Positions 3,771 to 44,551 of a stretch of DNA of 64,000 nucleotides are shown here, piece after piece (the stretch's first letter is position 1; each line of letters starts with the position of its first letter). This DNA comes from Erysipelotrichaceae bacterium (lineage in GTDB: Bacteria; Bacillota_I; Bacilli_A; Erysipelotrichales; Erysipelotrichaceae). The stretch spans positions 1 to 64,000 of the forward strand of contig JAUNNY010000002.1 of NCBI GenBank assembly GCA_030531215.1. The letters are read 5' to 3'. Both the position numbers and the translations under genes were made by a program. The notes under the pieces were generated by a model, which saw nothing but the letters and a program-made list of their open reading frames with translations, was not told the origin of the DNA and did not search any database.

Positions 3771-4663
3771 TAAAACTCAATTACCTCGATTTTATTAAAT
3801 CTATCTTCAATAATTTTCTTAGATTCTAAATCATTAGATAAAGTAGTTGCTAAACTAGCAGCATTAGCATATTTGAAAGATTCATAACTACTAGCTCCTC
3901 TTAAACTACTATATAAGAAACCAGCAACCATCGAATCAGAACTACCTGTAGAATTAACTAAACTGTCTTCAATAGTTTCACATTTATAGTTTTTATCTTT
4001 CGTAAACAAATATGATGGCTTATGTGCATTAGAATACATGACGTTAATTACGCCTTTTTCAACAAAAGATTTACATGTTTCTATGACATCCTCATTATTA
4101 GTAAAATAGCCATCATTAAGTTTAATCATAAAACAGTTAATATCTAAACATTTATTTATTATATGAGCATCAGTATCTAAAACAATCTTTACACCATCTT
4201 GAGCCAATTCATGTACTAATGCGATGATATCTTCTTCGATTTCATCTTGAACAGAACCACTTAAGACAAAAATATCATCATTATATATGTTTAAAGTTCT
4301 CTTTTTAAACTTTTCAAACTCTTCTTTTGATATATATGGCCCTTTAGCATTTAAACTAGTTTCATATTTATCATCCATTATTTTGACATTAATACGTGTA
4401 TTTTCTTTTATTGTAGTGAATAATGGCTGAATATTAGGATAGTTAGAAATAAAACTTAAATAATATTCTTTAGTAAAACCACCTATAAAACCTAAACAAA
4501 CACTTGGAATGTGAAAATTATTAAGCATTATTGAGACATTTACGCCCTTGCCACCTGCTTCAAACATTTCAAGATCACTTCTATTATTTTGATCTAATGT
4601 AAGTGAACTAGTGAATGTAATATAATAGTCTAAAGAAGGATTTGTTGTACATGTATAAATCAT
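3770..4663 (-). CDS. fruK: 1-phosphofructokinase-type PfkB sugar kinase
   Basis: About 297 residues of the PfkB/ribokinase family. It opens with the CTTNPSLDYYI segment typical of FruK/LacC (phosphorylation of fructose-1-phosphate or tagatose-6-phosphate), has the glycine-rich GGKGVNVSIML substrate loop near residue 38 and the ATP/anion-hole region NSTGSSDSMVAGFL near 237. The catalytic aspartate is in SSDS; the more usual GAGD is replaced by GSSD. I choose the ATG at 4663 rather than the TTG at 4669. There is no Shine-Dalgarno; instead TATAAT (4677-4672) lies 8 bases before the ATG, suggesting a leaderless mRNA. Divergent from the Mur-ligase fusion across about 22 bases. Confidence 0.8.
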   Translation of the reverse strand: MIYTCTTNPSLDYYITFTSSLTLDQNNRSDLEMFEAGGKGVNVSIMLNNFHIPSVCLGFIGGFTKEYYLSFISNYPNIQPLFTTIKENTRINVKIMDDKYETSLNAKGPYISKEEFEKFKKRTLNIYNDDIFVLSGSVQDEIEEDIIALVHELAQDGVKIVLDTDAHIINKCLDINCFMIKLNDGYFTNNEDVIETCKSFVEKGVINVMYSNAHKPSYLFTKDKNYKCETIEDSLVNSTGSSDSMVAGFLYSSLRGASSYESFKYANAASLATTLSNDLESKKIIEDRFNKIEVIEF

Positions 4664-4685
4664 ATACAATAATTATATAACAGAT
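4664..4685. promoter_or_regulatory. 22-bp divergent promoter region between fruK and the murE fusion
   Basis: Minus strand: TATAAT at 4677-4672, 8 bases from the fruK ATG. Plus strand: TACAAT at 4665-4670 with TTGTTG at 4642-4647 exactly 17 bases upstream, giving a leader of about 9 bases before the ATG at 4686; an alternative TATAAC lies at 4676-4681. Neither gene has a Shine-Dalgarno sequence. The -35 for the fusion gene lies inside the fruK coding start. Confidence 0.5.
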
Positions 4686-7600
4686 ATGTATATTTCTAAA
4701 CTTATTGACGGATATCGTGGTCAAGATATCGATATTAAAAATATAAGAGTAAACTCTAAGCTAGTTGAACCTGGAGACCTTTTTATTTGTATTAAAGGAA
4801 CTAAGGTTGATTCTCATAATTTCATCAAAGAAGCTATCGAAAATGGTGCTGTTTTCGCAATTACATCTAAATTTATGCGTATACCTATCCCTTATAAGCA
4901 AGTAAGAAACACGATAGAATATTCAATAGAACTATATAAACGATTCTATGGCAATCCTCAAGACAAATTAAAACTATATGGAGTTACTGGTACCGATGGT
5001 AAAACTACTGTTACAACTATCATTCAACAATTATTAGGGAATGATGTTTGTGGTTATATAGGTACCAATGGTTATTCATGTAAGAACTTCAATAATAATA
5101 ATCATGTAAATACTACACCTGCACCTGATGAAATGTATCGTATCTTAGGTGAGTTTGTTAATCACGATTGTAAAGCTGCAGCGATTGAAGCTAGTTCTGA
5201 AGGGTTCTATTATGGACGTCTAGATGGAATGTATTTTGATTATGGAATTGTTACTAATATTTCATCAGATCATTTAAATACACATAAAACATTAAAGAAC
5301 TATATTGAATGTAAAAAGAGAATATTGATGCAATCAGATATCCAAATATTAAATTCTAGTGATCAATATTTTAAAGAGTTTTCTAAAAACGCTAATAATT
5401 ATTATACATATGGTTATTTACCAGATGATAATTTATACATTAAAGATTATCAATTAAGAGATAATATGACATGTATCAACTTTGTAATTGATGATGTAGA
5501 ATATTTTTTAACTACTTCCCTGCTTGGTAAGTTTAATGTTGAAAATTTATGTGCGGCAATTCTAACCTTAGTTGCAGATGGATACGATGTTAACGACTTA
5601 ATCATTAAAGCTAAAAATATAAATATACCAGGCCGTCTTAATTTTATAGATAAGGGGCAAAATTTCAAGTGTTTACTTGATTATGCACATACAGCATATG
5701 GATTGAAGAGTTTATTTGAATTTGTAAATAAAATTAATGTCAATCGTAAAATAGTTGTCTTTGGAAAACCTGGCGAAAGAGATAAAGAAGCTCGCTACGA
5801 AATAGGTAAAATCTTAGAAGAATACAATGATATTGTTATTCTTACGCAACAAGATGCTCGAAGCGAAGATGTATCAAGTATAAATAAAGATATTATGAAA
5901 GATATCAGTTTGCCATATAAATTTATTGAAATTGAAGATCGTAAGCAAGCCATTAAACACGCTATGGATATTGCCGAACCAAACGATATTGTTATGATTT
6001 TAGGCAAAGGAATCGAAAATGGATTAAATATTAAAGGCAAAATAATGGAACATAATGATTTAGAGGAAATTAACAAATATTTAGATAGTATGGAAAAACA
6101 ATCAACAGAAATTATAAAAGCAAGTAAAATTTATAAAAACGCAAAAGTATATTCAATCTCTTTTGATAATAAAGAAACTAGAGCTGAAGCAATCGGTATT
6201 AAAGATGACAAGATTATATTCATTGGTTCTAATACAGAAGCTGAACAATACATTGGAAACGATACCGAAATAATAGATTGCAATGGTGGCAGTTTGTTAC
6301 CTGGCTTTGGTGATGCGCATATGCATTTTGCAGGCTCAGTAAGAAGATTTGAATCTGTCGATTTATTTGGCTTAGCTAAGAACCCTCACACTGACACACC
6401 TGATGAAATTATTAAGATTATTCAAGATAAATTAAAGAAATTTGCTGATGAACATCCTGACTATCCTGTTGTTCATGGATGTGGATGGGATAAATATTGG
6501 TTCCAAGGACAGTTACAAAATATTGTAAGAAACTTCACAAAACACGATATAGATGCTGTCGTAAATGATAGACCTGTTCTTTTAGATTCTAATTGTGGAC
6601 ATATATGTTTATTAAACTCAAAAGCACTTGAAATTGCTGGTGTTGATGCCAATACACCTGATCCAACTTCAGGATATATTAGAAGAGAAGAAAATAATGA
6701 ACCTGATGGTTTTGTTGAAGAACCTGCTGTTTTAATTCCTATATTTGAAAAAATACCTAATTCTACTTTCTCTGACGAATCAATAAAACAAGGTATGTTA
6801 AAAGCACAAGATATGTTTGCTTCTTTAGGTTACACATATATATCTGATTGTTTAGCTTTACCTAGTTATTATGAAGTATTAAGAAATATGGCTTTAAATG
6901 ATGAATTAAAGATGCGTGTTGACTGCGTATTTGGTTTTAACGATGCCACATCAAGTAAAGATTATGAAAGAGCTATAAACAACAAAGATTACTATACAGT
7001 TAAAGATATCTTAAAAAATGATACAGCTAAATATTTTGTTGATGGCGAATTCGCAATGTGTGAACCTTATGAAGATGTATATTGCGATCGCGAGGGTTTA
7101 CCAAGAGGATTTAATGCCCCTATTCTTTGGGATAAAGATAATTTGATGAAATCAATGGAAGACATCCAAGAAGCTGGATTCAATATTCATATTCATGCTA
7201 TGGGTGATTATGCAGTTAAATATTCTATAGATTGTCTAATTAATGCTAAAAAACATGATAAAACAAATAATCTAAGAAATATTATTGCTCACTGCACATT
7301 TGTTAAACCTGAAGATAAGAAACGTATGGGCGAAAATGGCATAATAGCTTCTATTCAACCAAAATGGTCTTTTGAAAATAACTCTAATTCTACAGATGTT
7401 GTTTTGCAAGTTGGCGAACGTAGACATGCTCATGTATATCCAAATCAAAGTTTAATGGATAATAATGTTATTTGTGCATATGGTTCTGATTATCCGGTTG
7501 ATTTACCTAATGCCTTAAATGATATACAAATGGCAATGACTAGGAAAACAACAAGACATTGTAATTTCTACGAAATAAATAAAGATTTTGAAACAGATAT

Positions 7601-7820
7601 AAAAGAAGAATGTGTAACTCTAAAAGAGGCTATTAAAGCTCATACAATTAACGTTGCATATCAATTCCATCGTGAAGATTTAACTGGTTCTTTAGAATTA
7701 GGTAAATCTGCTGATTTTGTTGTCTTGGACAAAGATATAGAAAAAACACCTGTCGACAATATTATAGATTTACAGATTGTCGAGACGGTGTTTAAAGGTA
7801 AAACAACTTATAAAAAGTAA
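4686..7820 (+). CDS. fusion protein: MurE-type Mur ligase + YtcJ-type amidohydrolase
   Basis: One uninterrupted 1044-codon frame. Residues 1 to about 470 are a Mur ligase of the MurE type (UDP-MurNAc-dipeptide plus amino acid, ATP-dependent): N-terminal UDP-binding part, P-loop GVTGTDGKTT (99-108), TTPAPDE, EASSEGF near 168, the ligase C-terminal motif LTQQDARSED (386-395) and GKGIENG near 440. From about residue 478 a metal-dependent amidohydrolase begins: HxH in GDAHMH (H545, H547), HIHAMGD (H835, H837), AHCTF (H869) and GSDYP (D935), matching PF07969/YtcJ proteins. No stop, frameshift or start with a ribosome site is seen at the junction (about 6060-6130). The usual DNPR specificity motif reads QDAR. 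Function of the second half is unknown; a wall-peptide or amino-acid amidase is an inference. Confidence 0.88.
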   Translation: MYISKLIDGYRGQDIDIKNIRVNSKLVEPGDLFICIKGTKVDSHNFIKEAIENGAVFAITSKFMRIPIPYKQVRNTIEYSIELYKRFYGNPQDKLKLYGVTGTDGKTTVTTIIQQLLGNDVCGYIGTNGYSCKNFNNNNHVNTTPAPDEMYRILGEFVNHDCKAAAIEASSEGFYYGRLDGMYFDYGIVTNISSDHLNTHKTLKNYIECKKRILMQSDIQILNSSDQYFKEFSKNANNYYTYGYLPDDNLYIKDYQLRDNMTCINFVIDDVEYFLTTSLLGKFNVENLCAAILTLVADGYDVNDLIIKAKNINIPGRLNFIDKGQNFKCLLDYAHTAYGLKSLFEFVNKINVNRKIVVFGKPGERDKEARYEIGKILEEYNDIVILTQQDARSEDVSSINKDIMKDISLPYKFIEIEDRKQAIKHAMDIAEPNDIVMILGKGIENGLNIKGKIMEHNDLEEINKYLDSMEKQSTEIIKASKIYKNAKVYSISFDNKETRAEAIGIKDDKIIFIGSNTEAEQYIGNDTEIIDCNGGSLLPGFGDAHMHFAGSVRRFESVDLFGLAKNPHTDTPDEIIKIIQDKLKKFADEHPDYPVVHGCGWDKYWFQGQLQNIVRNFTKHDIDAVVNDRPVLLDSNCGHICLLNSKALEIAGVDANTPDPTSGYIRREENNEPDGFVEEPAVLIPIFEKIPNSTFSDESIKQGMLKAQDMFASLGYTYISDCLALPSYYEVLRNMALNDELKMRVDCVFGFNDATSSKDYERAINNKDYYTVKDILKNDTAKYFVDGEFAMCEPYEDVYCDREGLPRGFNAPILWDKDNLMKSMEDIQEAGFNIHIHAMGDYAVKYSIDCLINAKKHDKTNNLRNIIAHCTFVKPEDKKRMGENGIIASIQPKWSFENNSNSTDVVLQVGERRHAHVYPNQSLMDNNVICAYGSDYPVDLPNALNDIQMAMTRKTTRHCNFYEINKDFETDIKEECVTLKEAIKAHTINVAYQFHREDLTGSLELGKSADFVVLDKDIEKTPVDNIIDLQIVETVFKGKTTYKK

Positions 7821-14963: not shown

Positions 14964-15731
14964 TTATTTGTTATATATATTGACTAAATCTCTACTAGTT
15001 TCTCTAATGAATATTTCAAAATCAGTAACAGATGTATCATGACCTGCAAAACATAAAATAAAAGGTTTTTTAGTATATACAATACCTACGTCATTACTTA
15101 AGTTGTCATCTTCACCAGTTTTATGAGCCACTTCTATCTCATCATTTAAATAACCAGGAATTTTATGATTAACTTGTTGTTTTAATAAACAATCATTTAC
15201 GTAATTAGAATAATATTCATTAATAAATGTCTTATCATATATTTGTTTTAATAAAATTGATAATTCTTTTAAACAAATTTTATTTTCTAATCCTTTGCTA
15301 GAAGCAACAGAATCAAATAATAATCTATATATTTTTGTTTTATGTAAACCCATAGAAACAAATTCATTATTTAATCTATCAATACCAAAATAATTGATTA
15401 AAACATTAGTAGCGGTATTATCAGATAATCTAATCATAAGATTACATAATGATTCAATATTTATATCAATATCACCAGTAAAACAATTCAATCCGCCACA
15501 ACTTGGTAACTTGTCTTCATTTTTGACTTTAACAACAGTATCAAAAGAAGTTTCGTTTCTTGAAACAAAGCGACAAATAGACAAATAAATTGGTAATTTA
15601 ATTACACTTGCCGCAAGAAATTCATCCTCTTCATTAAAACCGTAAGATTCATTAGTTGATAAATCAATAAAATAATAGCCTAAATGGCCAGATAAGTTAC
15701 TAATGCGATTGTTAATTTCATCAAATATCAT
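14964..15731 (-). CDS. class A beta-lactamase-like serine hydrolase without signal peptide
   Basis: 255 residues of the beta-lactamase2/transpeptidase fold. The three active-site motifs are intact: SVIK (S42-K45), SDN (S103-N105) and KTG (K204-G206). The omega-loop glutamate that makes class A enzymes hydrolytic is not evident; the region reads RLLFDSVASSKGLEN, as in many non-resistance members. There is no signal peptide or membrane segment, so it should be cytoplasmic, unlike true lactamases. It overlaps the D-aminoacylase gene by 4 bases. A D-amino-acid peptidase or esterase role fits the neighbours but is inference; antibiotic resistance is not indicated. Confidence 0.8.
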   Translation of the reverse strand: MIFDEINNRISNLSGHLGYYFIDLSTNESYGFNEEDEFLAASVIKLPIYLSICRFVSRNETSFDTVVKVKNEDKLPSCGGLNCFTGDIDINIESLCNLMIRLSDNTATNVLINYFGIDRLNNEFVSMGLHKTKIYRLLFDSVASSKGLENKICLKELSILLKQIYDKTFINEYYSNYVNDCLLKQQVNHKIPGYLNDEIEVAHKTGEDDNLSNDVGIVYTKKPFILCFAGHDTSVTDFEIFIRETSRDLVNIYNK

Positions 15732-17074
15732 ATTCTAATTGCCTTTCCTAAATTATTATTAATAATATTACCTTCATTCATTGCGATTTTACCATCTATT
15801 AAAACATAATTTATACCTTTAGGAGGAATAAGATCATCTTGATAAGTAGCACAATCTTGAATTTCGTTTAAATCAAATATTGTAATATCACCATCAGAGC
15901 CAGGAATTAAATTCCCTTTATTTTTTAAACCAATTTGTTTAGCGGCTAAACAAGACATTTTGTTTATTCCCTCAGATAATGTAATTTTATTAGTTTTAAT
16001 ATAATCACTAATAAATTTGGGAAAACTACCTGAAGCTCTAGGATGACCATGTCCATTATCTCTAGTACCATCTGAACCAACACAGACATAATCTTTTGCA
16101 AATGCTAAATCAATATCTTGTTGTTTCATGAAAAATCCAACTGTAGCTGTATTTGGATGATTGTTTCTTACTTCATTAAATAGTTTTTCATCACAATATT
16201 GTCCACGATAAATTCCCGAAGCAAGATAAACATGTGAATAATCACTATGGTAACGATCTAAAAAACCATCATCATATGTGGTAGAACCAATGCTTGTACA
16301 GAAAGCATCGTAAGGATAGCAATCGCAACACATATCAATACTCAACGAACGATATTCATCAATTTGCTTTAATAATTGATTCATTTGGTTATAACCGCCC
16401 ATTGAACCAATATGAGAAAATTGCACTCTTACTTTAGCTAATCTTGCTATTTCTTTTAATTCTTCACAAGCTGCAAATACTTCATCTTCATCTTGGCGAA
16501 CATGACAAGAAACAAGTTTATTTGATTCATGACATAAAGAAGCTAGTCTAACGAGTTCATCAGTAGTAGAACCTGGAACATATTTAATTCCAAAGGAAAC
16601 TCCTAATAGCCCATAGTCTAAATAATCTTTAGCAATTTTAGTCATTTTATCTATAACATCATTAGTTGTTGGCTTATATTTATTAATATTAAAACGTTGT
16701 CTAAGACTAGTATGCCCTACAAACAATCCTAAATTAACATAAGAACCATTTTTATCAAGATATTCATAGTATTTAATAGGATCATAATTATTATCACCAC
16801 AATTACCACCAATATCAGTTGTAACGCCCATTAATAAAGCTGATTTAGCCATCGAAAACGTTGGTTTATTATCAACAAAAGGATCTTCATGCATATGAAT
16901 ATCAATGAAACCTGGTGATACTATTTTATTAGTTGCATCAATAACTTGATCAGCATGAGGCTCATCATCTGTTATTGAACATATCTTTCCATCATTTATA
17001 AGAACATTAGTAATCTTGTCTAGTTGTTGGCAAGGATCAACAACACGTCCATTTTTAATGAGTAAACTACTCAT
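15728..17074 (-). CDS. N-acyl-D-amino-acid deacylase family amidohydrolase
   Basis: 448 residues. An N-terminal beta-sandwich (1-55, starting LLIKNGRVVDP) precedes the TIM-barrel amidohydrolase with the metal motif GFIDIHMHEDPF (HxH near residue 60), HVRQDEDE near 190, QFSHIGSMGGYN near 220 and the catalytic GSDGTRDNGHGHPRASG segment near 332-348, a signature of D-aminoacylase/dihydroorotase-like enzymes. It ends with the returning sandwich strand (LIPGSDGDITIFDL). The family removes acyl groups from N-acyl-D-amino acids. It sits between an amino-acid permease and a beta-lactamase-like hydrolase with overlapping ends on both sides, pointing to uptake and breakdown of D-amino-acid compounds. 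Confidence 0.85.
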   Translation of the reverse strand: MSSLLIKNGRVVDPCQQLDKITNVLINDGKICSITDDEPHADQVIDATNKIVSPGFIDIHMHEDPFVDNKPTFSMAKSALLMGVTTDIGGNCGDNNYDPIKYYEYLDKNGSYVNLGLFVGHTSLRQRFNINKYKPTTNDVIDKMTKIAKDYLDYGLLGVSFGIKYVPGSTTDELVRLASLCHESNKLVSCHVRQDEDEVFAACEELKEIARLAKVRVQFSHIGSMGGYNQMNQLLKQIDEYRSLSIDMCCDCYPYDAFCTSIGSTTYDDGFLDRYHSDYSHVYLASGIYRGQYCDEKLFNEVRNNHPNTATVGFFMKQQDIDLAFAKDYVCVGSDGTRDNGHGHPRASGSFPKFISDYIKTNKITLSEGINKMSCLAAKQIGLKNKGNLIPGSDGDITIFDLNEIQDCATYQDDLIPPKGINYVLIDGKIAMNEGNIINNNLGKAIRI

Positions 17075-44218: not shown

Positions 44219-44551
44219 ATAACATTTAATAAGCCATGTTCTGTATTAGATAATCATTTATCTGTGCAATGCACCTCATGAATAACTTCAGTTCGTCTTC
44301 ACAAGTTCCCCTACCAAATTTGGGTTTCTCGCTTAAGGGGTTTATCACGTTCCACTCTTAATATTTCTATTAAGTTCGTCTCTTTGACACTTTTATAGGC
44401 TAATTCCATGAGTTTCCTTTTAGGAATATTACCAGCCGTTAACTTACGTTACCTAAGCTTATTGTTTCACTTAGCTTAAACACTACATCCATCGCAGGAT
44501 GTGCGAGCATGGACTTTCCTCTAGTAATATACTAGCGATTATCTTAATGTT
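44219..44551 (-). ncRNA. rnpB: RNase P RNA, type B
   Basis: About 333 nt on the minus strand with the type-B landmarks: GATAATCGC, GAGGAAAGTCCATGCTCGCAC (CRI), GTAGTGTTT, the P4-flanking GAGTGGAACGTGATAAACCCC, GCGAGAAACCCAAATTTGGTAGGGGAAC and the 3' ACAGAACATGGCTTAT. The ends AACATTAA and TTAAATGTT pair as P1. It is the catalytic RNA that matures tRNA 5' ends. It is shorter than the Bacillus RNA (about 400 nt). Its 5' end coincides with the gpsB stop codon and it ends at a strong terminator before pgsA. Confidence 0.95.

Follow-up and report, generated by a model that had tools for sequence, protein, structure and literature searches.

A MurE ligase joined in one reading frame to a YtcJ-type amidohydrolase in two Candidatus Colivicinus species

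A gene of an Erysipelotrichaceae bacterium joins a MurE ligase to a complete YtcJ-type amidohydrolase in one open reading frame, and the fusion is genuine, its architecture being confirmed. The gene lies on the forward strand at positions 4686-7820 of the window (i.e., the whole 64,000-nt stretch of contig JAUNNY010000002.1 that was analysed) and appears to encode a single, presumably bifunctional protein found in two Candidatus Colivicinus species. MurE is essential and sets the chemistry of the third residue of the stem peptide, which is read by host immune receptors.

The frame runs over 1044 codons from the ATG at 4686 to the stop at 7818-7820 with no internal stop, as stated in a preliminary description made from the sequence of the window. 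Pfam models place Mur_ligase at residues 17-63, Mur_ligase_M at 100-294, Mur_ligase_C at 316-442 and Amidohydro_3 (PF07969) at 528-1042, the latter with an E value of 1e-64, 220 bits for a cut-off of 29.7 and the entire profile covered (1-472 of 472). The NCBIfam murE model TIGR01085 scores the protein at 386.8 bits, the cut-off being 257.3. The domain search proposed in the preliminary description hence recovers the Mur ligase domains and a whole Amidohydro_3 in the one protein. The MurE domain occupies residues 1-467 (4686-6086), the linker residues 468-480 (6087-6125; delimited by comparing the two species) and the amidohydrolase residues 481-1044 (6126-7817), which is complete and includes its N-terminal beta-strands in Pfam and in alignments with PDB 3icj and 3igh and with YtcJ sequences. 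The junction within one frame had been described correctly, but the ligase ends at ~467, where stand-alone MurEs stop, and not at ~478.

A full-length homologue without stops, 85% identical, lies at the same locus in Candidatus Colivicinus equi (horse-gut metagenome, contig JAGHUL010000025.1); the genus corresponds to GTDB UBA636 (PMC8957277). In both species the fusion is flanked by a pfkB-type kinase gene and by pheT, each on the opposite strand. The two genes differ by one single-codon (3-nt) indel, which is located in the linker and keeps the frame, and few stretches are less conserved between them than the linker region. In this two-species comparison, the corrected dN is 0.08 for the ligase half and 0.10 for the hydrolase half, and the JC-corrected dN/dS is ~0.05 and ~0.09, respectively, with silent sites near saturation. 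Because dN is low while synonymous differences are nearly saturated, both halves are under purifying selection in one frame. That an assembly error or a frameshift joined two genes is extremely improbable. The Ca. C. equi genome is a metagenome assembly and the genome of the window is fragmented and 69% complete, but the same join recurs in two separately assembled species, the indel is exactly one codon and the flanking genes are conserved on both sides. The identical join in the second species led us to reject an assembly artefact, and the frameshift at 6060-6130 that the preliminary description had suggested looking for elsewhere is absent, the second species sharing the open frame.

The fusion occurs in two of the 272 family genomes searched, so that the search for the same architecture in relatives, also suggested earlier, yields Ca. 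C. equi as one further case. In seven sister species (G001, G002, G008, G009, G015, G019 and G020), murE is a stand-alone gene of ~465-480 codons that ends at the junction and lies in a pfkB<murE>pheT< locus, with the exception that the pheT side carries other genes in G001. The same type of murE is present in three more genomes: in G030 it neighbours rpsB, and in the other two its contig is truncated. In none of the seven, nor in these three, is murE next to an amidohydrolase gene. The preliminary description had asked whether homologues are all separate genes with a stop at the junction: this holds for most homologues of the genus, which marks the fusion as derived rather than false, but not for Ca. 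C. equi. Because murE stands alone at the same locus in sister species, with no amidohydrolase beside it, the fusion probably arose once, recently, in the ancestor of the two species. In the tree, the pair falls on a long branch (0.96) within the stand-alone clade (MurE-A), with G020 as its neighbour. In the simplest history, a hydrolase gene would have been inserted behind murE, at its stop codon, and the murE stop lost. The ATG of codon 469 (6090-6092) sits where a stand-alone hydrolase would begin and is probably the old hydrolase start. It is also worth noting, from a comparison of L031:1431-2840 with L024-L029, that MurE-A of G030 occupies, beside rpsB, the locus of an alternative MurE-B in other genus members; since its place in other genomes is between pfkB and pheT, murE has changed position in the course of the genus's evolution.

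No near relative of the hydrolase was found at E 1e-80 in 395 genomes of the class or at E 1e-55 in 392 genomes of the phylum, which leaves no donor lineage above threshold in either set. The best plasmid matches are uncharacterised Streptomyces plasmid amidohydrolases with at most ~31% identity, and YtcJ genes of the order are ~24-29% identical. An intragenomic origin from the other YtcJ gene of the same genome was rejected, the two being ~26% identical, on long branches and in no supported grouping.

The ligase half has the features of a working MurE. The alignment shows GTDGKT, K210, NTTP, R-D-x-x-x-R and E444 to be kept, the curated murE score is passed and the N-terminal, middle and C-terminal domains are complete. 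The motif positions given in the preliminary description are borne out: the P-loop GVTGTDGKTT at residues 99-108 (4980-5009), EASSEG at 168-173, QDAR at 389-392 (5850-5861) and GKGIEN at 440-445. Characterised MurEs (TIGR01085; PDB 4c12 of S. aureus, 4bub of T. maritima and 2wtz of M. tuberculosis) share the domain set, the P-loop and the carbamate lysine, for which K210 (5313-5315) is the equivalent of S. aureus K219 (PMC3829189); E444 corresponds to S. aureus E460. They differ from the fusion in their DNPR, DNPA or DDPR motif, where the fusion has QDAR, and the fusion alone adds a C-terminal amidohydrolase.

The other Mur-ligase-type genes in the 69% complete genome of the window are MurF, MurD, FolC and two MurT-like genes (L045 and L046). 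The Ca. C. equi genome (96% complete) contains a further MurE homologue, MurE-C, at an rsmE-mtaB-murE-deoC locus (L034:7581-9023), syntenic with L082:7224-8678, L083:6758-8206 and L039:6332-7795. In every genus genome examined, the GTNGKT of the MurE-C P-loop is replaced (e.g., GCYGRSS), and the P-loop lysine and EASS are lost; the Ca. C. equi copy scores under the murE cut-off, and relatives in the order retain GSSGKT. By these motif losses, the second, syntenic homologue is a predicted MurE pseudoenzyme conserved in the genus. It was rejected as a second housekeeping MurE that would make the fusion dispensable, lacking the P-loop lysine and other motifs. Because MurE-C has lost the P-loop and EASS motifs, the fusion would be the only catalytically intact MurE found in either species.

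The amidohydrolase half carries a full set of predicted active-site residues, invariant in both species. The metal ligands are H545 and H547 of the HxH motif (6318-6326), H837 (7194-7196), H869 (7290-7292) and D935 (7488-7490), together with K782 (7029-7031), equivalent to the carboxylated bridging lysine K373 of the metalloBSH of Bilophila (BwBSH1), and H639 (6600-6602), equivalent to its catalytic/oxyanion histidine H196 (PMC13081902). The preliminary description had listed H545/H547, H869 and D935 correctly but had taken H835, which is unconserved in relatives, where the beta-5 ligand is H837, and had missed the putative carboxylated K782 and the oxyanion H639, which emerge from the YtcJ alignment. 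In BwBSH1, activity is abolished when any one of the six metal residues or H196 is changed to alanine (PMC13081902). As all these residues are conserved here, the hydrolase half is likely an active binuclear-metal amidohydrolase. The stretch after K782 reads DGEFAMCEPY, whereas most relatives have DGSLGxRT, and because of this departure the pocket is probably specialised.

Over its whole domain, the hydrolase resembles the YtcJ-type amidohydrolases (PF07969; PDB 3icj and 3igh), with which it shares the HxH, the bridging lysine, the two histidines, the aspartate and the CGH oxyanion motif, and from which it differs in being fused to MurE. These enzymes have broad activities and are mostly uncharacterised (PMC13081902), and the YtcJ/M38 group includes acylases of lysine and of other N-acyl amino acids (PMC10699109, PMC11511702). 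Because the hydrolase is at most ~31% identical to any match, transfer of function from these enzymes is weak. The epsilon-lysine acylases of Streptomyces (SmELA and SgELA; M38/YtcJ-like) belong to the same superfamily group and would release free lysine, the usual substrate of non-DAP MurEs. They lack the carboxylated bridging lysine (PMC11511702), and membership among them was rejected since K782 is present. MetalloBSH membership was likewise rejected: the six metal residues and catalytic histidine of BwBSH1 all have equivalents, but its predicted taurine-binding S194, Q381 and N443 correspond to C637, A790 and M839 when counted by offset from the matching metal and histidine residues, and the fusion has no C-terminal domain of the BwBSH1 kind. 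Elsewhere in Ca. C. equi (L035:1252-4756), two tandem YtcJ-type amidohydrolase genes lie beside small genes of the double-glycine-leader type (ISGG, FGGG).

A possible link between the halves comes from the supply of the third stem residue. Models of DapB and DapF found no match in 13 genus genomes, most of them at least 90% complete, while matching in controls and in one relative of the order. DapB is shared by all bacterial DAP routes. As the genus has neither enzyme, it is predicted to make neither DAP nor lysine, and the third residue must be scavenged.

In the MurE of S. aureus, lysine is held at its side-chain amino group by D406 and E460, N407 and P408 give the pocket its shape, and D406A cuts kcat several-thousandfold (PMC3829189). 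The corresponding motif is QDAR in both fusion species and EDPR or DDPR in the stand-alone relatives; measured against DNPR of mDAP enzymes and DNPA of S. aureus, the fusion matches neither the mDAP form nor the lysine forms (DNPA or DDPR), which bears on the amino acid used and not on its being a MurE. The changes that took place in the fusion lineage are E389Q and P391A, at the positions of S. aureus D406 and Pro408; at the first of these, every other ligase-competent MurE in the alignment except two from the order has an acidic residue. The side chain accepted by the fusion MurE thus appears to have changed. By analogy with S. aureus, E389Q, which removes an acidic contact, might weaken the binding of lysine instead of retuning it.

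In Lys-type walls, FemAB enzymes build bridges on the amino group of the third residue. Comparison of the genomes carrying FemAB pairs with G000, G004, G003 and G014 revealed a pair of canonical FemAB genes in six sister species (G001, G002, G008, G009, G015 and G019), and none in the two fusion genomes, in which only a weak FemAB/GNAT-like protein of 346-351 aa was found. G020 (78% complete) and two genus members that have the other MurE type likewise lack canonical FemAB genes. The absence of these genes is thus correlated with the fusion and not unique to it, and the uneven distribution of the pairs suggests that cross-link chemistry differs within one genus.

The best mechanism that we can propose, with a probability of about 0.35, is that the hydrolase frees the amino acid that MurE adds; the two activities, the substrate of the hydrolase and the coupling of the halves are all inferred. 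The hydrolase would cut a scavenged precursor bearing an N-acyl or otherwise amide-bound amino acid, which would be released next to the ligase and joined by the MurE half, with ATP, to UDP-MurNAc-L-Ala-D-Glu. Three ways of coupling ligation with hydrolysis had been offered in the preliminary description, and we think that amino-acid supply is the best of them, since the genus is unable to synthesise DAP or lysine. Weighing against it, the fusion is carried by no more than two sister species and so has not persisted over long evolutionary time, K782 places the hydrolase outside the known epsilon-lysine acylases, and co-expression may be all that links the two domains. A bolder version, in which the hydrolase releases a non-standard third amino acid for a MurE with a retuned pocket, giving an unusual stem and no FemAB bridge, is unlikely. 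An AlphaFold run from an alignment of just the two fusion sequences gave a pLDDT of 30.

Equally credible is that loss of the murE stop joined a neighbouring hydrolase gene and that the domains work on unrelated substrates, the fusion persisting because it is harmless or through shared expression. Its restriction to two family genomes, the complete, stand-alone type of the hydrolase with its own N-terminal strands, the broad and mostly uncharacterised activities of YtcJ enzymes (PMC13081902) and the tolerance of MurE-A for a C-terminal extension all fit this reading. It has more difficulty with the strong purifying selection on both halves in a frame that stays intact while silent sites are nearly saturated, and with the fact that the fusion coincides with an altered MurE specificity motif and the absence of FemAB. 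Less likely than amino-acid supply, and quite doubtful in itself, is that the hydrolase acts on wall peptides, either recycling muropeptides or stripping UDP-MurNAc-tripeptide of a third residue that was wrongly added or is modified. The amidohydrolase superfamily does include isopeptide and acyl-amino-acid hydrolases (PMC11511702), and fusion to MurE would position the enzyme at the nucleotide precursor. However, no feature for binding muropeptides was recognised, the closest relatives that have been characterised cleave small N-acyl amines, and in neither species could another recycling gene be identified next to the fusion.

The cell could also make two polypeptides, by internal initiation at ATG 469 or by proteolysis of the linker, which ranks below amino-acid supply as well and is improbable. 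This ATG is the only in-frame start codon near the join in both species and lies shortly before the hydrolase start, and the linker is poorly conserved. Against this, there is no stop between the halves, so that ribosomes reading through yield the full-length protein, and no Shine-Dalgarno sequence above background precedes ATG 469 (-1.7 kcal/mol compared with -1.9 for random sequence). The earlier statement that the junction has no internal ribosome site holds to that extent, but the lack of a Shine-Dalgarno is not decisive because the start of the fusion itself lacks one too. The start codons of the fusion and of the divergent pfkB-type gene lie ~20 bp apart (4663-4686) with a Shine-Dalgarno on neither side, and the transcripts here are possibly leaderless.

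Neither the literature searched nor NCBIfam yielded a description of a fusion between MurE and an amidohydrolase, and within this scope the earlier claim of novelty stands: it is a new domain combination of known families. Known fusions of peptidoglycan enzymes are MurE-MurF, MurB-MurC, MurG-MurC, MurC-Ddl and MraY-MurG (PMC6420597). In MurE-MurF and other Mur-Mur fusions (Bordetella, PMC6420597; NCBIfam PRK11929), the C-terminus of an essential Mur ligase is likewise joined to another enzyme, possibly bringing reactions together as may be the case here. Their partners, however, are enzymes of the peptidoglycan pathway, whereas the partner here is an amidohydrolase. The fusion offers a direct lead to how walled bacteria lacking DAP and lysine synthesis could obtain their third residue, and a rare way into the function of the large YtcJ group, most of which is uncharacterised; if the domains are unrelated, it is still a documented recent fusion onto an essential enzyme. 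Elsewhere in the window, a class A beta-lactamase-like gene was seen by eye to overlap a D-aminoacylase/amidohydrolase-like gene on the reverse strand (14964-17074), and the RNase P RNA, of bacterial class B, lies at 44225-44550 on the same strand.
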